A stretch of 64,000 nt of DNA from positions 496,001 through 560,000 of the forward strand of contig LYSY01000001.1 of NCBI GenBank assembly GCA_001657395.1, in the 5' to 3' direction. The DNA is from Rhodospirillales bacterium BBD 1991-14. Lineage in GTDB: Bacteria > Pseudomonadota > Alphaproteobacteria > Kiloniellales > Kiloniellaceae. How positions within the stretch are numbered: position 1 is the first letter of the stretch; every line of letters starts with the position of its first letter. Below the pieces are notes generated by a model. It had not been told where the DNA came from. It searched no databases and worked only from the letters and a program-made list of their open reading frames with translations. Positions 42,192 through 59,645 of the stretch are shown here, piece by piece. The translations under genes were made by a program, and so were the position numbers.

Positions 42192-44468
42192 ATGCAGAAC
42201 CCGGGGCAAGGGGAAGCCATGACCACCCTTCGACAGCAGCTGAGCCGTACCCAGGGGGACTTCATGAGTCTGACGATCCCCCAGCTCATCGGTGTGTTCT
42301 GGCGCCGCAAGTGGATCATCGGCACGACGCTCTTTGTTGCACTCTGCGTCGCCGTGATCGCCAACGGGGTGATCACGCCGCGTTACACCGCCACCGCATC
42401 GGTGATCGTCGAGCCGCGTCAGCAGAACGTGATCGAGATCGAGTCGGTGATGTCCAGTCTTCCGGTCAGTCTGGAGACGATGCAGAGCGAGGTTCAGATC
42501 ATCCAGTCGCCGACCTTGGCGCGCCAGGTGATCGATGGCCTGGGGCTGGCCGCCCTGGCGGAGTTCAATCCGGCTCTCCTGCCCAGGGAGCGCAGTGTCG
42601 TCGACGAGGTGAAGTCCGGGATCAAAGGGGTCTTTCGGCCGGTCATCGCCTGGTTGAAGGAGGAACCTGCGCAGCCCCGGGCGGTGGAGCTTGCCGAGGC
42701 GCCGGGTACCTGGGACCTCAACACCGAGCAGGTTCAGCAGGACTGGGGACAGACACGCATCGTCAACCGCTTCCTGGGCAGGCTCAATCTCGCCATTCAG
42801 GGCTCTTCGCGCGTGATCTCCATTTCCTACACCACCGGCGATCCGGCCCTTTCGCAGCAGATCGCCAATGCCGTCGCGGAGGAGTACATTCGCGACCAGG
42901 TGAGGCTGAAGAACGACGCCTTGGCGGGTGCCAACACCTTTCTCAGCGGGCGCATCGCGGCGCTCCGCGCCGATGTCCAGAAAGCCGAGAACGCCGTCGA
43001 GGAATTCCGCGCCACCACGCCGATCATCTCGGAACGCGACGGCGAGCTGATGGCCGAGCAGATCTTTTCCCTCAGCCGCCAGGAACTGGATGCACAGCTT
43101 GAGCTCGACACGGTGAACGAGCGCCTTGACCGCGTGCGCCTGGCGGTGGCCAGCCGCGGCCAAATGGCCGCCTTCGAGGGGGTGGAATCGACGGTCATCA
43201 ACTCCCTGCGGCTGGAGGAGATGCGGCTGCGTCAGGAGGAGTCGGAGCTGCTCACCACCCTGGGTGACAGGCATCCCTCGGTGGTCGCCGTGCGCTCCCA
43301 GCTCGACAAGCGGCGCCAGCAGATGGTCGAGGAAGCGCGGAGCCTGGTATCGAGTCTGCAGAACGAGAAGGACCTCGCCCAACAGCGCGTGGGCTCCATT
43401 CAGGCCTCGCTGCGCCGGCTGCAGGGTGACTCGGATATCTTGAGCTCGGCGCAGATCGAACTGCGGGCGCTGCAGCGGGAGGCCGAGGCGACACGCGAGG
43501 TCTTCGAATCCTTCCTGAACCGCTACAAGGAAACGGAGCAGATCGACTATGATCAGGCGCAGTCGCGGATTCTGGCACTCGCCAGCATCCCGACCAGCCC
43601 GTCCTTTCCCCGGACGCGCCTGAACTACGCCCTTGCCGTGGTGCTCGGCTGCGGGCTGGGTGCCCTCATCATTCTGCTGCTTGAGCTTTCCGTGCGCGGT
43701 TACCGCGATGCGGAGGAGGTGCAGACGGCGCTGGGCCTGCCGGTTCTGGCGGTCATACCGAGGGTTCGCGGGCGCAGTCTAGCCGGCAAGGGTTTGGACC
43801 GGTTCCTGAGCGCCGAGCCCAACTCGGCCTTCGCAGAGGCCCATAAAAGCGTTTATGCCGCCTTGCGGGTCGACCGCCGGGTCCTCAATCTCGGCAACGT
43901 TCTGCTGGTTACATCTTCAGTGCCGAACGAAGGCAAATCCGTCTTCTCGCGCACCCTCACTGCGTCGCTTGCGCGGGCCGGAATGAACGTGTTGCTGATC
44001 GACGCCGACCTCCGGGCTTCCGAGCAGGAACCCCGGCTGGGCCTTTCGGATTTCGTCCTTACCGACTGTCCGCTTGAACAGGCAATCGAGATCGACGAAG
44101 GCTCCACGCTGTCCGTCATACCGCCCGGTACCCAGACGGTGGACCCGCTGATGGTGCTGCGCTCCCAGAAGCTGACGCGCTTTGTGCGGGCAGCTGGCGA
44201 GCAGTACGACCTCGTCTGCATCGACGCGCCGCCGACGCTGGCGGTTTCGGACGCCGCGACCCTGGCGGAGCTTGCCGATCAGGTGGTCATGGTGGTGCGC
44301 TGGAGCCGGACGCCAAAGCAGTTCGTCCAGGCGGCCCTGGAGCGGCTGCGCAAGTGCAAGGCCCATGTCGCGGGGACCGTCATGACCCAGGCCCAGCTCT
44401 CGCGCAGCGCGAAGCTCAATCCTTATACCGTCGGCTATGCCGACCGCAGCTTCCGCAAGTACTACTAG
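42192..44468 (+). CDS. Wzc/ExoP-type polysaccharide co-polymerase and tyrosine kinase
   Basis: A 758-aa inner-membrane protein. A Wzz domain with the first helix at about 40-60 and a long periplasmic coiled-coil arm precedes the second helix (about 480-500). A cytoplasmic BY-kinase domain follows, with Walker A SVPNEGKS (about 577), Walker A' LLIDADLR and Walker B LVCIDAPP. The C-terminus (NPYTVGYADRSFRKYY) has four tyrosines for autophosphorylation. It sets chain length and couples polymerisation to export through the Wza-type lipoprotein. Starts at 42192, 42219 (best ribosome site, aagggg) and 42264 are possible. Confidence 0.93.
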   Translation: MQNPGQGEAMTTLRQQLSRTQGDFMSLTIPQLIGVFWRRKWIIGTTLFVALCVAVIANGVITPRYTATASVIVEPRQQNVIEIESVMSSLPVSLETMQSEVQIIQSPTLARQVIDGLGLAALAEFNPALLPRERSVVDEVKSGIKGVFRPVIAWLKEEPAQPRAVELAEAPGTWDLNTEQVQQDWGQTRIVNRFLGRLNLAIQGSSRVISISYTTGDPALSQQIANAVAEEYIRDQVRLKNDALAGANTFLSGRIAALRADVQKAENAVEEFRATTPIISERDGELMAEQIFSLSRQELDAQLELDTVNERLDRVRLAVASRGQMAAFEGVESTVINSLRLEEMRLRQEESELLTTLGDRHPSVVAVRSQLDKRRQQMVEEARSLVSSLQNEKDLAQQRVGSIQASLRRLQGDSDILSSAQIELRALQREAEATREVFESFLNRYKETEQIDYDQAQSRILALASIPTSPSFPRTRLNYALAVVLGCGLGALIILLLELSVRGYRDAEEVQTALGLPVLAVIPRVRGRSLAGKGLDRFLSAEPNSAFAEAHKSVYAALRVDRRVLNLGNVLLVTSSVPNEGKSVFSRTLTASLARAGMNVLLIDADLRASEQEPRLGLSDFVLTDCPLEQAIEIDEGSTLSVIPPGTQTVDPLMVLRSQKLTRFVRAAGEQYDLVCIDAPPTLAVSDAATLAELADQVVMVVRWSRTPKQFVQAALERLRKCKAHVAGTVMTQAQLSRSAKLNPYTVGYADRSFRKYY

Positions 44469-45493: not shown

Positions 45494-46927
45494 TCAGTCC
45501 GTCGTGGTCGTTGGCGCTGTCTCTGGCAAGGCGGCTTCGCCCGCAGCGTGCGGCGACCAGACGGGCATGCGGGCGCTGCGGCCGCGCAACTCGGCATCCT
45601 CGATGCGGTCGAAGCGCTTCACGAGGGCTTTTTCGGTGTCGCTTTCCGCCTGTGCCTCGGCCATCTCAATCGCCGCGCCGCTGACAATGATGGACCGGTT
45701 CCTCTGCCGTGTCAGCCGCTCCAGCCGGCTGGCCACATTCACCGAGTCACCGATGACCGTGAACTCCAGGCAGCGGGAGTCGCCGACAGCGCCGACAACC
45801 ACCGGCCCGAAGTGCAGGCCCATGCCGGCCCGCAGGGTCGGTTCTCCGGCCGCTTCCCGCTCCCGGTTCCAGGCATCGAGAGTATCGCGCAGGGCGCAGG
45901 CGCAGTGCAGGGCCGCGAGCGCGTCCTTGGCACCAGGGGTCGGGGTCCCGAAGGTCGCCATGATGCCGTCGCCCAGGTACTTGTCGATGGTGCCGCCGTG
46001 TTCGAAGATGACCTTCGCGGTTCTCTGGTGGAAAGTGCGCAGCAACTCGATGACCGCCACGGGTTCCAAGGTCTCTGCAAAGCGCGTAAAGCCGACGAGA
46101 TCGATGAAGAGGACCGCAACCTCCTGGGTTCGCACCTCGGCCAGCGCATCGTCGCTGTCGGCGAGCTGCTCGACGACATTGGGCGAGAAGAAGCGCGCCA
46201 GGTTGCCGCGCGCCCGCTCGGCGCGGGCCTGGCGGATCAGCAGCTTGCGCGATCGCCAGACGGCTGCCGCCACCAGACTGGTGGCAATCAGGAAAAGCAC
46301 CACCTGGTTTGCCCATCCCGTGATGCTGACGAAGTAGGGGTCGAAGATCAGGCCGAAGTTCTGGTCGACCCAAAGCGGGTCGGCGGCGGTCGCCAAGTGC
46401 TGATTGGTCTCGGTGATCGTGCTGGGCAGCGAAATCACCCACCAGACCGCCAGGCTCCAGGCCACCATCGTCGTGATGCCGGTCCAGATCACCAGGATCG
46501 GCGAATAGCTGATCGCCGCCAGTGCCAGCCAGATATAAAGATAGAGGTCATTGTGGATTTTCAGGTTGCCCTGGATCGGCCAGGGGGCGTCGGAGAGCGG
46601 ATTGGGAAAGATCAGGGCGACGGCCAGGAGCGCGGAATCCAAGGCGATGAAGAGCGCGGTCCAGGCGGTCGGATGGTCCGTGCGCGTGCGAGTAACATAG
46701 TGTGCAGCCCCCAGGAGCAGGAACAGTCCGATGATGCCCAGATAATAGCTGGCCCGCGGCATCGGGACCTCGATGATGAGCCAGGCGCCGACCACGATCA
46801 GCGCCAGAGTGCGCGCACCCAGGGCAAAGACCAGGCCCGCGTCCTCCTCGCCGCGCAGCGCATGGCGGACACGCGCCTGCGTTGTTTCATCCCATACCAT
46901 CGAGGTAACGCTCGACGTAAGGCTCAT
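45494..46927 (-). CDS. Membrane class III adenylate/guanylate cyclase
   Basis: A 477-aa protein from ATG 46927 behind gaggga. About six N-terminal membrane helices (residues 35-250) precede a class III catalytic domain (about 270-440). The two metal aspartates lie in VLFIDLVGFTRFA and KYLGDGIMATFG. The adenine-side position reads FTVIGDSVNVASRL, with Thr where class IIIa enzymes have Asp, as in class IIIb cyclases. It makes cAMP (GMP activity cannot be excluded). It is antiparallel inside the polysaccharide locus, so regulation of that locus by cAMP is possible but unproven. Confidence 0.88.
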   Translation of the reverse strand: MSLTSSVTSMVWDETTQARVRHALRGEEDAGLVFALGARTLALIVVGAWLIIEVPMPRASYYLGIIGLFLLLGAAHYVTRTRTDHPTAWTALFIALDSALLAVALIFPNPLSDAPWPIQGNLKIHNDLYLYIWLALAAISYSPILVIWTGITTMVAWSLAVWWVISLPSTITETNQHLATAADPLWVDQNFGLIFDPYFVSITGWANQVVLFLIATSLVAAAVWRSRKLLIRQARAERARGNLARFFSPNVVEQLADSDDALAEVRTQEVAVLFIDLVGFTRFAETLEPVAVIELLRTFHQRTAKVIFEHGGTIDKYLGDGIMATFGTPTPGAKDALAALHCACALRDTLDAWNREREAAGEPTLRAGMGLHFGPVVVGAVGDSRCLEFTVIGDSVNVASRLERLTRQRNRSIIVSGAAIEMAEAQAESDTEKALVKRFDRIEDAELRGRSARMPVWSPHAAGEAALPETAPTTTTD

Positions 46928-47118
46928 GCTCTTCCCTCGCAGATCTTTGCTTTCCCCAATCAATCGGTCCCCTGTGGACCGGATGCCGGGCGCCCAAACC
47001 AGCAGGCCGCCGCGCAGCCTTCCGCCAATCCACACTGCGTCGGAATTTTGGACAGATTGTGGCAAGGACACAAGAAATCGGATGCTCCGGTTCCTGCCCG
47101 CAGCCGGGAGGCTGGCGC

Positions 47119-48294
47119 ATGAAGATCCTCTTCGCGACCGGCCATGGATACCTGCCCCAGCGGGTCGGCGGGTCTGAGTCCAGCAGCCATGAACTGATCC
47201 TGGCGTTGCGCGAGGCGGGCCACCACTGCGAAGTGCTGGCGCAGCTTCAAGGCAACGGCTGGCTCGCTTTCCGCAATCGGGTGGTGATGAAGCTGACCCG
47301 GCGGCCCTTGCTGGCAGACGCCATGCCGGGCTATCGGGTGTTCCGAGCCTGGATGCCGGCGGCCCAGGTGGACCGCCTGCTCGGCCGCTGGCGCCCTGAT
47401 GTGGTGCTGGTCCAGTCCGGCGAATCCCTGCGGATGGCCGAGGGCTTTGTCCGGGCCGGCGTCCCCACGGTCGTCTATCTGCGCGATGTCGAGTTCCACG
47501 AACTGGGCGGCGACCCGGCCGCGCTGCCGTCACTCGGCTATATCGCGAATTCGCAGTTTGTGGCGGATCGTTTCGAGACGGCCTATGGGCCCAAGGCGAC
47601 GGTGATCCGGCCGCTGTTTCGCGCCGCCCGCTACCGGACCCAGGTTGAGCCGAAGCAGGTCACCTTCATCAATCCGCACCCTGTCAAAGGGGCCGACCTG
47701 GCCTTTGAAGTCGCCAAACGCTGCCCGGAGATCCCCTTCTGCTTCGTGGAAGGCTGGCCGATGAACGCGCAGGAGAAGAGCGCTCTGGATTCCCGTGTCG
47801 CGGCCCATCCAAACATCCGCCTCCAGCCGCGGACCCACGACATGCGCAGCGTCTATGGCGCAACCCGTTGCCTTCTGGTGCCGAGCCAATGGGAGGAGGC
47901 CTGGGGACGCGTGGTGACCGAGGCCCAGTTCAGCGGCATCCCGACCATTGGCAGCAATCGGGGCGGGCTGCCGGAAGCGATCGGCCCGGCCGGCCGGATC
48001 CTGCCGCACGATGCGCCCGCCGAAGTCTGGGCGGATGCGGTCCGGGAATTCTGGGCCGATTCCCCGGTCTATAGAGAAGCCTCGGAGGCGGCCTGGAGCT
48101 ATGGGAAGCGGCCGGAAATCGATCCGCAGAAACAGATTGAGAGCCTGATCATGACGTTGAACGCCTTTGTCACCGCCCGCCAGATGGCAGGTCAGGCGAT
48201 GTCGGCGGCGAAGGAGAACCGCTTTCTGCCGGGTGCGCAACCCGACGTGCAACCCGGTGCACAGAGCGGTGCGGGCAGGAGCGGTGCCCTATGA
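47119..48294 (+). CDS. Family 4 glycosyltransferase
   Basis: A 391-aa GT-B enzyme from ATG 47119 behind gggagg. The N-terminal glycine-rich region GYLPQRVGGSESSSHELILA and the C-terminal nucleotide-sugar site LLVPSQWEEAWGRVVTEAQF (EX7E type: E...E in WEEAWGRVVTEA) identify GT4. The last 30 residues are a Pro/Gly/Ala-rich tail. It is the first of three genes joined by ATGA overlaps (next starts 48291 and 49268). The divergent cyclase gene begins 191 bases upstream. Confidence 0.88.
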   Translation: MKILFATGHGYLPQRVGGSESSSHELILALREAGHHCEVLAQLQGNGWLAFRNRVVMKLTRRPLLADAMPGYRVFRAWMPAAQVDRLLGRWRPDVVLVQSGESLRMAEGFVRAGVPTVVYLRDVEFHELGGDPAALPSLGYIANSQFVADRFETAYGPKATVIRPLFRAARYRTQVEPKQVTFINPHPVKGADLAFEVAKRCPEIPFCFVEGWPMNAQEKSALDSRVAAHPNIRLQPRTHDMRSVYGATRCLLVPSQWEEAWGRVVTEAQFSGIPTIGSNRGGLPEAIGPAGRILPHDAPAEVWADAVREFWADSPVYREASEAAWSYGKRPEIDPQKQIESLIMTLNAFVTARQMAGQAMSAAKENRFLPGAQPDVQPGAQSGAGRSGAL

Positions 48295-50238: not shown

Positions 50239-51609
50239 TCAGGCTACTTTGCGGAGCGGTTGACGCCCGGACAGGATGTTCATCGTCATTTCCGTCGCCG
50301 TTTCCAGCGGCAGCTTGCCGGTCGCCACACGATGCGGCCTGCCCGGACTCATGATCCAGAACGCGCCGTCCCGGTGGTGCTGGCTGTTGTTTACGTAGCC
50401 GACCGGTGCGAAGAAGGCGGAGAAGGGCACCTTCGCGCCGTTGCCGCGGTGCATCTGAGCGGCTTCATCCAGCGGCTGGATATAATTGCACCAGAACATC
50501 ACCCGCGCGGCGTCGCGGCGCCAGGCGAAGACCGGCTCGCTGGCGGCCGTCACCTGCCCGAGAACGGCTTCGAAGCGGCGGGCATCCGCCTCGTCCTCGA
50601 AGCTGGCCCAGGCCTGATGCGTCATCACCGGCTCCACCGTGGCGCTCGCCGGGGCGTCCAGCCAGTCCAACAGCTTGCGGAAGTCGCGCGGGCGGTGCAC
50701 GAACTTGCCGCCGATGTCCTCGTACTTCAGGTTCGCCTCCTGGCTCAACGCGGTCACGAGGATCACGGCGCCATCATTCCCAACCAGCCGCAAGGCGTCT
50801 CCGACCAGCAGGTCGAGGCCGCGGTAGCCGGTCTCGATGGCATCGCCGTAGGACGCGAGCTCCGCGCCGCTGGGCTTCACGCTGTATTCCTCAGCGGCCA
50901 TGTGCCGCCAGTAGCGGTGCTGGTAGAAGGCCACCGAGTTGGCGAAGAAAAAGGCGACGTCGGGGCGGCGCTTGCGGTAGCTGTGCTTGAAGACATCCCA
51001 GGAGAGTTGATCGAGGATCGTCGCGCGATGCCAGCGCCGGTCGCGCTTGCCGAAACGCTCGGCCAACAGTTGTGAGGCGGTGCGCCTTGCGGTTCTCAGG
51101 CTGAGCCCATGGCCGAGAAGGAACTTCCCGAAAGCCAGTGCGTCACGCGCCCCGTCATCGGCATCCGGGTTTGCATGCTCGGTCACCTTGTGGGCCACGA
51201 AACGATGGAACACCCGGAAGGCGTCATCGGAGGGCGGCACGTGCCGCGACCAGGGGTCGGGCACCACGGTGACCCGGTCGCTTTTCGACGGGCTCACGTT
51301 CATGGAGCCAAAGACAAGAGCGCTCTTGCCCTCTTCGGCGAAGCGGTCCCAGAGCTGGTGCAGCGTGATGCAATGCCCCTGGTCGAGCTCGGTGATTCCG
51401 TGCACCGTCTGCGGCTGGCCGGTGTGATAGCTCACCCACTGAACCCAGGGCTCCAGGCTTTCGTCTTTGGTGGTGGAAACGAAAACCTCCGAACGGTCGT
51501 GCAGGCGCCGGAAGTTCGGCAGCACGCCCTTGCCCATCAGGCGGTTCAGGATCGGCGGGCAGAGTTCGTTGAACTCCAGAACGATCAGGGACTTCGGCGT
51601 CTCGGACAT
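50239..51609 (-). CDS. Alkaline-phosphatase-superfamily protein with altered metal motifs
   Basis: A 456-aa protein with the fold landmarks of type I phosphodiesterases/sulfatases: an N-terminal strand then ELCPPILNRLM, LPNFRRL, and PWVQWVSYHTGQPQTVHGI, which corresponds to the nucleophile region. The usual metal ligands are changed. The first Asp is replaced in LEFNELCP, and the normal SDHG reads TALSQE. A late QHHRDGAFWI could supply the last His. I recall related EFNE/ELNE proteins in other polysaccharide loci, so this may be a conserved variant rather than decay. Role unknown; no signal peptide is seen. Confidence 0.7.
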   Translation of the reverse strand: MSETPKSLIVLEFNELCPPILNRLMGKGVLPNFRRLHDRSEVFVSTTKDESLEPWVQWVSYHTGQPQTVHGITELDQGHCITLHQLWDRFAEEGKSALVFGSMNVSPSKSDRVTVVPDPWSRHVPPSDDAFRVFHRFVAHKVTEHANPDADDGARDALAFGKFLLGHGLSLRTARRTASQLLAERFGKRDRRWHRATILDQLSWDVFKHSYRKRRPDVAFFFANSVAFYQHRYWRHMAAEEYSVKPSGAELASYGDAIETGYRGLDLLVGDALRLVGNDGAVILVTALSQEANLKYEDIGGKFVHRPRDFRKLLDWLDAPASATVEPVMTHQAWASFEDEADARRFEAVLGQVTAASEPVFAWRRDAARVMFWCNYIQPLDEAAQMHRGNGAKVPFSAFFAPVGYVNNSQHHRDGAFWIMSPGRPHRVATGKLPLETATEMTMNILSGRQPLRKVA

Positions 51610-54223: not shown

Positions 54224-55057
54224 CTACAGCGACCAGTTCGCGAACGGCATGCCGGTGAAGTCGCGGAAGCGCATGGCGTCGTCCTTTAGCAAGACCTTCA
54301 GTTCGGCGCGCAAACCCTCGTCGATCCGTGGCAGCTCACCCTGTGGCGCGCGCCGCAGCCGGTTCAGGATAGCTTCGTAGAGGGGTTGGGGAAGGCGTCC
54401 TTTTATGGCCTTCAGGAATGGGGACCGCCGGGCCCGGAAGTACCACTGCGGCAGCCCTTGGAGACTGCTGCGTTGGTTGTGAGCCCGATCGAGGCCATCG
54501 ACCGTAACCGCGCTGTCGACCTCAAGGAATTCGAAGACCTGGCGCACGAGGTTGTGCGGGTGCTCACGCAGCTCGTCGAAACTGGCCACGAAGATCTGGT
54601 CGCGCGGGAAAAAGTCCAGGTATCGGCTGAGTTGCTTGAAATAGCGGCTGCATTCCAGGTAGTTGCGCCCGGCTCTGGTGTTCAGGACATGCCCCGGGTC
54701 TGGGTTCGCTTCGCCCGCTATGGCGTGATGATGGTACTGGGACAGAAAGCGGTCGACCGGGTCACGCACGATGTAAATCAGCTTCACGCCCGGCGCCGTA
54801 TCGAAGATGCGCTCCGGTACGCCCGGAAACTCCGTGTGCTTGGTGTAGTTGGGCGAGGCCTCGCCGTTGATCCGGGCGCCGCTGGCGAACTGCGCTCGAT
54901 ACCAGTCCAAGCCCTGCGCGTAATTCTGCCTGGCCAGGAAGAAGTCGGTTTCCTTTTCACGCGAAAGCCCGATATCCGGATGTGCTCCGAGGTAGCGGTA
55001 CAGGCTGGTGGTACCGCACTTCATGGCACCAATGATGATGAAATCCGGCGCCATCAT
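54224..55057 (-). CDS. PAPS-dependent sulfotransferase
   Basis: A 277-aa cytosolic-type sulfotransferase. The 5'-phosphosulfate loop GAMKCGTTSLYRYL (residues 10-23, catalytic-region Lys13) and the 3'-phosphate motif IVRDPVDRFLSQYHHH (about 95-110) are intact. It resembles bacterial relatives of heparan sulfate sulfotransferases. Being in an operon with the polymerase gene, it most likely sulfates the polysaccharide repeat unit using 3'-phosphoadenosine-5'-phosphosulfate; the target sugar is unknown. Confidence 0.9.
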   Translation of the reverse strand: MMAPDFIIIGAMKCGTTSLYRYLGAHPDIGLSREKETDFFLARQNYAQGLDWYRAQFASGARINGEASPNYTKHTEFPGVPERIFDTAPGVKLIYIVRDPVDRFLSQYHHHAIAGEANPDPGHVLNTRAGRNYLECSRYFKQLSRYLDFFPRDQIFVASFDELREHPHNLVRQVFEFLEVDSAVTVDGLDRAHNQRSSLQGLPQWYFRARRSPFLKAIKGRLPQPLYEAILNRLRRAPQGELPRIDEGLRAELKVLLKDDAMRFRDFTGMPFANWSL

Positions 55058-55445: not shown

Positions 55446-56903
55446 ATGGATGCTGCGCTGGCGGCAGTGGACGGAAAACGGGCTAGTCGGGACGTCAGGC
55501 CGATCTCTCGCATCGCCGTCGATGTCGGTTTTCGCATTTGCGATCTTATGATTATCGGCATCCTGGGCCTGGCGGTGTTTTTCCTCCGGCAGGCAGAAGA
55601 CCCAAGCCTGTATTACCCCAAGTATCTCGGCGCGATCGTCGTTGCCATGGTGGTTGCCACGATGATGCTCCACCGCTTCGACGTGTATCGGGACGACTTT
55701 CTCTTCGCCAGGCGCATCCCTTACGGAAACATCATCACGGCCTGGACGGTGACCTTCTGCGTCTTGCTGGCCCTGGCCTTTCTCATGAAGGTGTCCGACA
55801 CCTATTCGCGCATCTGGGCGCTTTCGTGGTTCTTCGGCACCTGTGCCGGCCTGGTTGGCGGCCGCCTGCTGCTGCGGCGCTGGGTGCGCGGGCTTGCTGC
55901 GGCGGGCCGTTTCGCCAATCGCACGGTTATCGTCGGGGCGGGGGAACAGGGGCGCCGATTGGCTGCCTACCTCCAAACCCACGGCGATCTGAGCACCAAG
56001 ATCATCGGCTTTGCGGATGACCGGCGTTCCCGCGTTCTGCGGGAAAGCAACGGCGTGCCGCTCCTGGGCACGGTGGGAGACCTGATCGGGATGATCCGCC
56101 GGGACGAGGTGGATCAGGTCGTTGTCGCGCTGCCCTGGACGGCCGACCAGAGGCTGAGGGAGGTCGTTGGCCAGCTCGAGCGCACACCGGTTCCGATCAG
56201 GCTGGCGCCGGACCTTGCCGCTTTCAGCTTTCCCGACCGCACCTTCACCCGGCTGGCCAGGTTGCCCGTGATGCAGCTCTTCGACCGGCCGATCTCGGGC
56301 TGGTCTTTCATCCTGAAGACGATCGAGGACCGCAGCATCGCTGCCCTGCTGCTGCTTCTGCTCTCGCCCCTGTTTCTGCTTGTTGCTCTTGCGATCAAGT
56401 TCGATTCGCCCGGGCCGGTCTTCTTTCGACAGAAGCGCTACGGCTTCAATCACAATCTCTTCGATTGCTGGAAGTTCCGGACCATGCACCACCACATGAC
56501 CGACGCCAATGCCGAGGTCCTGACGCGCCGCAACGACGGGCGCGTTACGCGTGTTGGCCGCTTTCTGCGCAAGACCAGCCTCGACGAGCTGCCGCAGCTC
56601 ATCAACGTCCTCAAGGGCGACATGTCCCTGGTCGGGCCGCGGCCCCATGCCACCTCCGCCAAGGCCGGCGGTCATCTCTATGAAGATGCGGTCGATGCCT
56701 ATGCCGCGCGTCACCGCGTCAAGCCGGGCATCACCGGCTGGGCCCAGGTGAACGGCTGGCGCGGGGAGACCGACACGGTCGAGAAGATCGAGCGGCGGGT
56801 CGAGCACGATCTCTTCTACATCGAGAACTGGTCGCTGGCGTTCGACCTGCAGATCCTCATCAGAACCGCCTTCGTCGTCCTCGGCGATCGCGAAGCCTAC
56901 TAG
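55446..56903 (+). CDS. Undecaprenyl-phosphate sugar phosphotransferase (ExoY/WcaJ-like)
   Basis: A 485-aa polyprenyl glycosylphosphotransferase that starts the repeat unit by moving sugar-1-phosphate (glucose or galactose) from UDP-sugar to undecaprenyl phosphate. About four N-terminal helices precede a nucleotide-binding-like domain ([20 protein letters not shown], about 160-180). A further helix follows near 300, then the catalytic bacterial sugar transferase domain with [29 protein letters not shown] and VGPRPHA. It is the full-length long form, unlike the short ExoY. It opens the plus-strand group running to the outer-membrane barrel. Confidence 0.94.
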
Positions 56904-56919
56904 AAGGGAGCCTGATATC

Positions 56920-57675
56920 TTGCCGGACACCATAAAGGTCCCCCCTCTTCGCAAGGCCATCATCCCTCTGGGTGTGAGGCCTCTCGGGCTCCAGCCGACC
57001 ACCGGAGCGCCGGGACAGGCGCCTTCCTTTGCCGGAGAAGACCGCGATCTGCGTGCGGTCGTGGAGGAAGCGCGGGCCTGCGGACTGAGCGAGTTGGTCC
57101 TGGTGACGGAAGATGGCGTGACGGTCGTGGACGATCGCCGCGGCGGACGTCACGTCCACGTTTTGGGCTGGCCTTCCGCTGCGGACCAGCAGAGCGGCGA
57201 CGCGCCCCGCCCGCGCCAGATCAGGATCGGCCGCCAGAGCGGCCGGCGCAGCCTTGCGACCGCGCTGCTCGCGGCCGGCAAGGTCGTTGGGCAGGAGCCG
57301 GTGGCCGTGCTCGTGCCGGCCCGGCCACAGACCGGCGGTGCCATGGCGATGCTGCGTCTGGCGGCACGCTATCGGCAGGCAGGCGGGAATGTGGTTGCCG
57401 TGCTGGATGACGGTCTGAGAGAGCGGGATGGCTGCTTCGCCGCGGTCGCGGCGGCGTCCTTGGGCCGCTACATCCTGCAACCGCAAGTCTTCGAGGCGCT
57501 TGAGAGTCAGGCTGTTCCTGACCTTCATGCCGCCATTCTTTCAACAGCCGAGGCCTGGCCTCTGAACGTGGTTGCTATGCGCATTGAGTCGGAACCCGGA
57601 CAGAAGCGCGCCAATCGGCTGCGCCAACCGGCGGAGGTCTGGGCGGGCAGCCGCTTGTCCGAAGCCGGCGACTGA
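56920..57675 (+). CDS. Degenerate GalU/ExoN-like nucleotidyltransferase
   Basis: A 251-aa protein from TTG 56920 behind gaaggga. It aligns by eye with UTP-glucose-1-phosphate uridylyltransferase: LRKAIIPLG near the start, VVEEARACGLSELVLVTEDG, VVGQEPVAVLVPA and LGRYILQPQVFEAL. However, the glycine-rich nucleotide loop (GxGTRxxP) reads GVRPLGLQP, the KEMLP lysine is missing, and the metal Asp of the LPD motif is Ala. It is also about 40-50 residues short. It is therefore probably not catalytic. It has been kept as an intact frame between the initiating transferase and the export lipoprotein, where exoN sits in some clusters, suggesting a regulatory or scaffold role. Confidence 0.75.
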   Translation: MPDTIKVPPLRKAIIPLGVRPLGLQPTTGAPGQAPSFAGEDRDLRAVVEEARACGLSELVLVTEDGVTVVDDRRGGRHVHVLGWPSAADQQSGDAPRPRQIRIGRQSGRRSLATALLAAGKVVGQEPVAVLVPARPQTGGAMAMLRLAARYRQAGGNVVAVLDDGLRERDGCFAAVAAASLGRYILQPQVFEALESQAVPDLHAAILSTAEAWPLNVVAMRIESEPGQKRANRLRQPAEVWAGSRLSEAGD

Positions 57676-57743: not shown

Positions 57744-58316
57744 ATGCACGTCGGGGGAAGCTTTGCCGTCAGGTCTCTGGCGGCGGCCATGCTTTCGATT
57801 CTCATTGCCGGATGCACCGGGGCAGGGTCCCTGCCGCCGCTTCCGGCCAAGGCGGAAGGACCATACAAGTTGGGCGCCGGCGACCGGGTCCGCCTGGTGG
57901 TGTTCGGTCAGGAGGAACTGACCGGAGAATACCTTGTCAGCGATTCCGGGTTCGTGACGGTGCCCTTGATCGGGGCGGTCGATGCGGAAGGCATGAGCGT
58001 TCAGGAGCTAGAGGACGCCGTTGCCGAGAAGCTCGCGCAGGGCATTCTGGTCTCTCCGAACACCACGGTCGAAATTGCGACCTACCGGCCCTTCTACATT
58101 CTTGGCGAGACCAGAGCGCCGGGACAATACGCCTTTGTGCCGCGGATGACCGTGCTCACGGCGGTCTCGATCAGCGGGGGGTTCACCTTCAGGGCGGATC
58201 AGGACACTGTTTCGATCACCCGCGAGGTTGACGGCGAGCTTGCGGAGTTCCGGGCCGATCCGCTGGCTCTCGTGCAGCCGGGCGACGTGATCAACGTTTA
58301 CGAACGCTACTTCTAG
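57744..58316 (+). CDS. Polysaccharide export lipoprotein (Wza/ExoF-type)
   Basis: A 190-aa protein with a lipoprotein signal (LIAGC, lipidated Cys24). The Poly_export domain (YKLGAGDRVRLVVFGQEELT, about 42-125) and a SLBB-like region (YILGETRAPGQYAFVPRMTV) follow, ending in VQPGDVINVYERYF. It is the short form without the C-terminal helix that makes the outer-membrane pore in E. coli Wza, so it probably works with the barrel protein encoded next. A very strong ribosome site (aggaggag) precedes ATG 57744. Confidence 0.93.
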   Translation: MHVGGSFAVRSLAAAMLSILIAGCTGAGSLPPLPAKAEGPYKLGAGDRVRLVVFGQEELTGEYLVSDSGFVTVPLIGAVDAEGMSVQELEDAVAEKLAQGILVSPNTTVEIATYRPFYILGETRAPGQYAFVPRMTVLTAVSISGGFTFRADQDTVSITREVDGELAEFRADPLALVQPGDVINVYERYF

Positions 58317-58364: not shown

Positions 58365-59645
58365 ATGACCGCTTCGCCACGCCCTGACTCTTCGGCCCAA
58401 GGGATGCGCGGTGTGCGGCAGATGGCCTGTGCCGTGCTGGCAGGGGGGCTGGCAGGAGGACTGACAGTTCCCCTGGCGGTCGCTCCGGCGGCGGCGCAGG
58501 AAAGCGGCGAGCCGGTTGCCGTCTTTGAACGGCCGCGCGAAGCTTTTGATGCAAAAGGGCTCGACCTGGGCGGCTTTCGCCTGTTTCCGCGCCTCAGCGT
58601 GAGCGAGACCTATGACGACAACGTCTTCGCCGATGAGAGCGGGGAGGAGGACGATTTCATCACCTCGGTCGCGGCATCCCTGGTTGCGCGGAGCGAGTGG
58701 TCGCGCCACAGCCTGCGCGTGGTCGGCCAGATCCGGGATCAGACCTTCCTGGACAATTCAAGCCAGGACCGCACCGAATACCTCTTTCGTCCGCAGCTTC
58801 GGCTGGATTTGGCGGAGCGGAACCAAGCCGATCTCAGCGCCGAGTACAGCCGGCAGGTCATCGGCCGCGACGACCCGGAGGACACCGGGGAAGAGGACCC
58901 GACGGAGTTCGACCGTTTTCAGGTGAATAGCGGCTATACCCACCGCTTCAACAGGGTTTTCGTGGGCGGGCAGGTGCAGGTGCGCCGGGACGACTACATT
59001 TCCACCGGCGATGACGATCGCGACCGCATCGAGTATCGTTTCAGCCTGCCGATCGGCTACGAGATCTCCGAAATCACCGACGTGACCTTGGAGCCCTTTT
59101 TTCGCATCCGGGATTTCGACGAACTGGACGAGACCGGCGCGGATCGGGACGCGCGGGCGGGCGGCGCCACCATCGGCGTCGAGACAGAGCTGAGCCGCCT
59201 CGTGCATGTCGCCCTGGATGTCGGTTTCATTGCCAACGACTTCGAGGATCCCGACTTCGACGACGATGTCGATTTCATCGTCGACGGGGACTTCACCTGG
59301 TATGTCACAGGGCTGACGACCGTGAAAGGACGCCTGGCGCGGCGGGACAATGCGACCAACACGCCCGGGTCCTCGTCAAAGACCCAGTCGACGGTTTCCG
59401 GCGAGGTCCAGCACGAGCTGATGCGCAACGTTCTGCTGGTGGCCGAGGCGCGTTACGTTCAGGACGACTTTCGGGAAGTGGACCGTGTCGACGACCGGGC
59501 TATCTTTTCCTTCGGCGGCGAGTACCTGATCAACCGCTACGTCTCGATCGGTGCGGACTACCGCTATGTGCAGCGCTGGTCGGATGACGAAGACAGGGAC
59601 TTCTCCCGCAATCTCGTGACGCTTGGGCTGCGCACCAAGTTCTAG
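58365..59645 (+). CDS. Outer-membrane beta-barrel protein of the polysaccharide locus
   Basis: A 426-aa protein with a signal sequence (MACAVLAGGLAGGLTVPLAV, cleaved near APAAAQESG). From residue 65 it shows repeated amphipathic strands alternating with acidic turns (SVSETYDDNVFADESGEEDD, QVQVRRDDYISTGDDDRDRI) and ends in VTLGLRTKF with a terminal Phe, the outer-membrane insertion signature. It fits the beta-barrel porin 2-like family commonly found with Wza-type proteins. It may form the secretion pore or anchor the exporter. ATG 58365 or 58404 could start it. Confidence 0.88.
   Translation: MTASPRPDSSAQGMRGVRQMACAVLAGGLAGGLTVPLAVAPAAAQESGEPVAVFERPREAFDAKGLDLGGFRLFPRLSVSETYDDNVFADESGEEDDFITSVAASLVARSEWSRHSLRVVGQIRDQTFLDNSSQDRTEYLFRPQLRLDLAERNQADLSAEYSRQVIGRDDPEDTGEEDPTEFDRFQVNSGYTHRFNRVFVGGQVQVRRDDYISTGDDDRDRIEYRFSLPIGYEISEITDVTLEPFFRIRDFDELDETGADRDARAGGATIGVETELSRLVHVALDVGFIANDFEDPDFDDDVDFIVDGDFTWYVTGLTTVKGRLARRDNATNTPGSSSKTQSTVSGEVQHELMRNVLLVAEARYVQDDFREVDRVDDRAIFSFGGEYLINRYVSIGADYRYVQRWSDDEDRDFSRNLVTLGLRTKF

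Follow-up and report, generated by a model that had tools for sequence, protein, structure and literature searches.

A degenerate GalU homologue conserved between the initiating phosphotransferase and Wza-type export genes of an alphaproteobacterial polysaccharide operon

Genes at the locus

The window analyzed in this study is a stretch of 64,000 nucleotides from Rhodospirillales bacterium BBD 1991-14 (contig LYSY01000001.1, positions 496,001 to 560,000 of the forward strand). Within it, the frame of a degenerate GalU homologue, referred to together with its orthologues as X, follows the gene for an initiating phosphotransferase (PHPT) and precedes genes for a Wza-type export protein and a beta-barrel protein (Table 1). 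The initial annotation of this DNA had placed X between the initiating phosphotransferase and a Wza-type lipoprotein, and this arrangement was confirmed, with both neighbors scoring above the family cut-offs (WcaJ model TIGR03023, 512.7 bits against 410.75; Poly_export PF02563, 76.8 bits against 28) and with a lipobox-like IAGC in the Wza-type protein, read by eye. Its description of an intact frame preceded by a ribosome site was likewise borne out, as the frame is open over 251 aa with aagggag ~9 nt before the TTG.

Table 1. Features at the X locus and in the same polysaccharide region (window coordinates)
Feature	Position	Strand	Remarks
Wzc-like chain-length/tyrosine kinase	42192..44468	+	Same polysaccharide region
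WcaJ-type undecaprenyl-phosphate glucose phosphotransferase (PHPT)	55446..56903	+	Directly upstream of X
Shine-Dalgarno-like aagggag in 16-nt gap	56904..56919	+	~9 nt 5' of X start
X, degenerate GalU homologue	56920..57675	+	251 aa, TTG start, TGA stop
Former GxGTR...K...K catalytic-loop codons	56965..57036	+	~residues 16-39, ~22% identity between lineages
Well-kept C-terminal block	57415..57564	+	~residues 166-215; X-specific invariants R169, G171, E211, W213
Wza-type polysaccharide export protein (Poly_export/SLBB)	57744..58316	+	
BBP2_2 beta-barrel outer-membrane protein (EpsL-like)	58365..59645	+	

A Wzc-like protein and glycosyltransferases are encoded within ~20 kb of X, from which we infer a polysaccharide locus of the Wzy type. 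Across the orthologues, the gap between PHPT and X ranges from -1 to 84 nt, and that between X and the downstream gene from 14 to 88 nt. In genome G007, the PHPT stop codon overlaps the X start codon (TGATG, L064:9165-9170), suggesting coupled translation. Other features of the region were also observed. At 45494-47533 on the minus strand, inside the polysaccharide region, lies a gene whose product has a catalytic domain of the adenylate/guanylate cyclase type (PF00211, E 1.1e-20), and a 240-aa protein whose gene adjoins it has no Pfam or NCBIfam match. Two minus-strand genes, one at 54224-55057, which we take from its motif to be sulfotransferase-like, and one at 50239-51609, have homologues in the stretches from G001, G002, and G006, with none in those from G003, G005, and G007; given this patchy occurrence, the polymer probably differs between species.

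Descent and active-site residues of X

Comparison with family models and structures indicates that X descends from GalU, alongside which ExoN is named as a UDP-glucose pyrophosphorylase. X matches the NCBIfam galU model TIGR01099 (E 4.7e-7, 29.6 bits, against an equivalog cut-off of 326.8 bits) as well as the GalU of PDB entry 2ux8 (E 1.8e-11), and profile-profile comparison of the X orthologues with GalU gave E 1.9e-47 over 235 columns. At E<=1, the window protein has no Pfam match, and PF00483 matched two of the seven orthologues. X is 25-31% identical to the aligned GalUs. An AlphaFold2 model of X, built with low confidence (mean pLDDT 62.8; pTM 0.67), has GalU as its best structure matches (2ux8_B, Z 15.9 over 175 residues, rmsd 4.3), with whole-model TM-scores of only ~0.5. 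The overall fold and homology of GalU are thus found in X by sequence, profile, and structure model, in agreement with the GalU pattern noted initially, and the likeness points to GalU descent beyond chance.

Active-site residues, numbered as in E. coli GalU, were compared with a GalU reference set of 84 distinct rows, derived from 102 loci by dropping 18 near-copies and with no filter on the loop motif. G17, G19, R21, K31, Q109, D137, the YG pair, E201, K202, and Y218 are invariant in all 84 rows, and T20 and K27 are each present in 83. One GalU, that of Rhodospirillaceae bacterium SYSU D60014 (L036:5989-6885), has GLGVR for GLGTR, with the other catalytic residues that were checked intact. 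In the window X, G17, G19, T20, R21, K27, K31, and D137 are replaced by V, P, L, G, G, Q, and A, respectively. The GxG(T/S)R loop is gone, with G17, G19, and T20 changed or missing in all seven X, as are K27, K31, D137, the YG pair, K202, E238, and D243. R21 is changed in six of the seven, the single Arg, in G005, falling where the alignment is uncertain. At the metal-binding position D137, the seven carry A, A, S, S, S, E, and E, and the lysine of the VEKP motif, K202, is Arg in every one, in an alignment that is less sure near a deletion. X is also without the ~20-30-residue stretch that carries the YG pair, and D265 is kept in G002 and G006 only. Residues retained more widely are Q109 on the uracil side (5/7), E201 (4/7), and Y218 (7/7). 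All seven X retain 16 of the 96 GalU columns with a conservation of 92% or more, and none retains a further 35. The loss of the nucleotide loop, the loop lysine, and a metal Asp had been reported initially for the window protein; it recurs in all seven orthologues when set against the GalU reference set, and this conservation supports the view that X is catalytically disabled. By the residues that define the family, X would not be a GalU enzyme.

Residues of the oligomer interface were compared as well. K27, K65, D73, and R108 are essential for the Klebsiella GalU tetramer, and K10 contributes to it, according to PMC11796359. In all seven X, K27, K65, and D73 are lost and K10 and R108 are kept; on these residues, a GalU-type homotetramer of X is unlikely. 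The retention of K10 and R108 was considered as evidence for docking on GalU and rejected, since two of five kept is not above background (P 0.19). With K27, K65, and D73 gone and this P value, nothing points specifically to GalU as a partner.

Conservation and selection

The former catalytic loop has an identity of 22% across six X lineages, compared to 94% in seven GalUs, while the core of X is 53-67% identical in four blocks. The first strand is 67% identical and the C-terminal GRYxLQP...AEAWP block 54%, with values of 23% for the tail and 24% for a variable stretch. In these alignments, conservation is inverted, in that the best-kept part of GalU, the catalytic loop, is the worst-kept part of X. 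Invariant residues of X that are unlike GalU include L116, A143, R169, G171, L207, E211, and W213, and a new signature, R-x-G...E-x-W, is apparent. In five of the seven (G000, G001, G002, G006, and G005), the C-terminus of X (~57655-57675 in the window) is Gly-Asp, preceded by a tail that can hardly be aligned.

Random decay with stop codons in the orthologues, which the initial annotation had raised as the outcome contrary to its proposal, was sought and not seen in the seven: every frame is open, with neither stops nor frameshifts. Length varies from 222 to 294 aa across lineages and the C-terminal helices or region are gone in several. For the closest pair, the dN/dS of X is 0.219 (0.115-0.372). 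Values for PHPT, Wza, and the barrel are 0.062, 0.053, and 0.082, respectively, and seven other genes reach at most 0.124, placing X at ~2 to 4 times its neighbors. Beyond this pair, synonymous divergence exceeds 1, and identity to the orthologues (blastp) is 35-47% for X compared to 58-81% for PHPT, Wza, and the barrel. In a simulation of neutral drift, X remained open in 256, 52, 13, and 3 of 2000 runs at divergences of 0.17, 0.5, 1.0, and 1.5, respectively, and as the simulation was run without insertions or deletions, this open-frame estimate is conservative. Purifying selection on X is real, and it is looser than that on the adjoining genes. Given that X evolves faster than its neighbors and has lost its C-terminal region in several lineages, this selection may be weak. 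Together with the seven orthologues and the fixed synteny, it bears out the earlier statement that X is kept, and the alignments show the pattern expected where the body of a protein, rather than its active site, is what has been preserved.

Distribution and origin

X was found in seven of eight genomes of the genus that were covered (its own and seven relatives), always between the PHPT and Wza genes. In the eighth, G004, no X, Wza, barrel, or PHPT was found at the thresholds used, and the four are thus jointly present in seven genomes of the genus and jointly absent in one. An intact GalU is encoded elsewhere in the genome that harbors the window. In a tree with 80 GalU rows picked by loop motif (L024, L055, L119, and L130 being left out), the seven X form one side of a branch with an SH-aLRT of 100, and on this tree X is of single origin, with an exact root that is unsure owing to the long X branches. 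Recent duplication of the GalU of its own genus was considered as the source of X and is not supported, as X forms a long-branched clade with no special link to that GalU. The least changed X are those of G002 and G006, which share ~40-42% identity with GalUs along almost the entire protein.

X proteins score 249.8-396.0 bits, and the best non-X match scores 156.0 bits in the order sample (61 genomes) and 144.5 bits among the matches listed for the class sample (385 genomes). Outside the genus, X was not found in these order and class samples, among the matches listed in the case of the class; scoring covered no more than 43 and 6 candidates per genome, respectively, and a very diverged X could escape such searches. 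Five of the best non-X matches were inspected and have intact motifs. No X was seen beside PHPT at 20 loci of the order (L143-L162, ~1.5 kb of flank each). At L156 (G040, of another family of the order), a GalU-like stretch (30.8% identity to own GalU) lies ~1 kb upstream of PHPT, and could be RmlA-type. The PHPT relative of G008 (L163) also has no X beside it in the 841 nt downstream that were covered. As far as the samples reach, X appears to be a genus-level feature tied to the operon.

Discussion

The analysis established that X descends from GalU, has lost its catalytic residues across the orthologues, is under purifying selection, and occurs only where the PHPT/Wza/barrel block does. On balance, we lean toward the interpretation that X, once a GalU, has stopped making UDP-glucose and now serves the UDP-glucose/initiation step as a non-catalytic regulator or scaffold. 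That the protein is conserved suggests another role, perhaps in regulating or organizing the sugar supply. X would be made together with the WcaJ-type PHPT, which should use UDP-glucose, and would modulate or organize this step. It could do so by binding the real GalU, as has been proposed for GalF, or by binding PHPT and thereby coupling UDP-glucose supply to chain initiation. GalU is a possible, if tentative, partner, and PHPT a somewhat more doubtful one; the fold, which comes from a tetrameric enzyme, and the precedent of GalF place GalU slightly ahead. Tethering of the initiating enzyme, one of two roles proposed initially, is a candidate role from the gene order and the stop/start overlap in G007. 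A specific form of binding to GalU, in which X acts as a one-sided cap, appears rather unlikely. The loose-interface residues K10 and R108 would then dock on the D73 side of GalU, while X, lacking D73, K27, and K65 itself, would cap or split the tetramers and, being made with PHPT, couple UDP-glucose synthesis to initiation; if this is true, bacteria would have evolved a GalF-like pseudoenzyme a second time, independently.

Several other explanations were weighed. A reshaped pocket in X might accommodate UDP, a UDP-sugar, or a sugar phosphate, with X serving as a sensor or catalyzing a different reaction. This would fit the retention of Y218 and the uniform replacement of K202 by Arg in all seven orthologues, as well as the uracil-side Q109 kept in five, but the phosphate-binding loop, the metal Asp, and the Tyr-Gly segment are lost throughout, and no part of the protein is less conserved than the loop. 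While such a pocket is unlikely in general, the initial proposal that X senses UDP-sugars has specifically been weakened, as most nucleotide and sugar-phosphate contacts are gone in all seven, with Y218 and the uniform Arg left in its favor, and it is the less likely of the two roles proposed at the time. It is also conceivable that X is in the course of being lost, having arisen as a GalU duplicate that became non-functional and survives, in a young genus, through weak selection or by chance. The elevated dN/dS, the variable length, and the loss of C-terminal helices would be expected of a remnant, yet no stop or frameshift has arisen although synonymous divergence exceeds 1 beyond the closest pair, where neutral drift would leave the frame open in at most 13 of 2000 runs, and all seven have lost an identical set of 35 out of 96 conserved GalU columns while keeping a specific core. 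We regard a remnant as improbable.

Two explanations are more remote still. Should the frame mainly carry translation from PHPT to the export gene, the protein itself would matter little, and the short gaps on either side and the overlap in G007 are consistent with this; these gaps, however, vary in length, and conservation of residues is uneven and fold-like, of which a mere spacer has no need, making such a relay highly improbable. It seems equally far-fetched that X is a still-working pyrophosphorylase with unusual residues. The model has a GalU fold, and PMC4643126 describes UDP-glucose pyrophosphorylases without the loop Arg, as in Leishmania, but every X has altered or lost G17, G19, T20, K31, D137, the YG pair, K202, E238, and D243, and an intact GalU is present in the genome.

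Comparison with known systems

The galF gene sits by polysaccharide gene clusters. Like X, the GalF of Escherichia coli and Klebsiella is a GalU descendant that has a broken GxGTR loop, is accompanied by an intact galU elsewhere, and evolves faster (PMC4643126), and the combination of broken loop and intact GalU that marks GalF is found in X. In the same text, GalF is 57% identical to GalU and retains the equivalents of E201, K202, Y218, and D265, most of which X has lost; its Vmax falls short of that of GalU by roughly four orders of magnitude, and interaction with and regulation of GalU are proposed. X further differs in lying mid-operon, after a phosphotransferase, in an alphaproteobacterial clade. 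The galF model matches five of the seven X orthologues (best E 2.4e-26) and the galU model all seven (best E 2.8e-38), and judging by these model scores, X is probably not a galF descendant. The second gene galF is called 'uniquely' enterobacterial (PMC11796359), GalU/GalF pairs are said to be reported so far for Enterobacteria only, and the actual function of GalF is described as still unclear (PMC6888414). By analogy, X resembles enterobacterial GalF in a more degenerate form and may well work like it. X shares the fold and overall sequence order of GalU itself but lacks its catalytic residues, as well as K27, K65, and D73 of the four key tetramer contacts.

The same logic is seen in GMPPA, a non-catalytic nucleotidyltransferase paralogue that binds product and its active paralogue and regulates GMPPB (PMC11228364), although GMPPA is eukaryotic and belongs to a GDP-mannose system; a GMPPA/GMPPB complex entry (7d73_F) ranks 50 in the fold list of the X model, with a Z of 12.1. 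In the open-licence papers searched, neither a pseudoenzyme nucleotidyltransferase nor a catalytically inactive UDP-glucose pyrophosphorylase homologue was found described with exopolysaccharide, and among open-licence papers on Pelagibius exopolysaccharide, no title concerns such a protein. X would represent an independent alphaproteobacterial case, more extreme than GalF and fixed in one operon position, and its comparison with GalF could tell what purpose a pseudo-GalU serves. With the X of G002 and G006 as intermediates, the order in which the losses took place can be followed.
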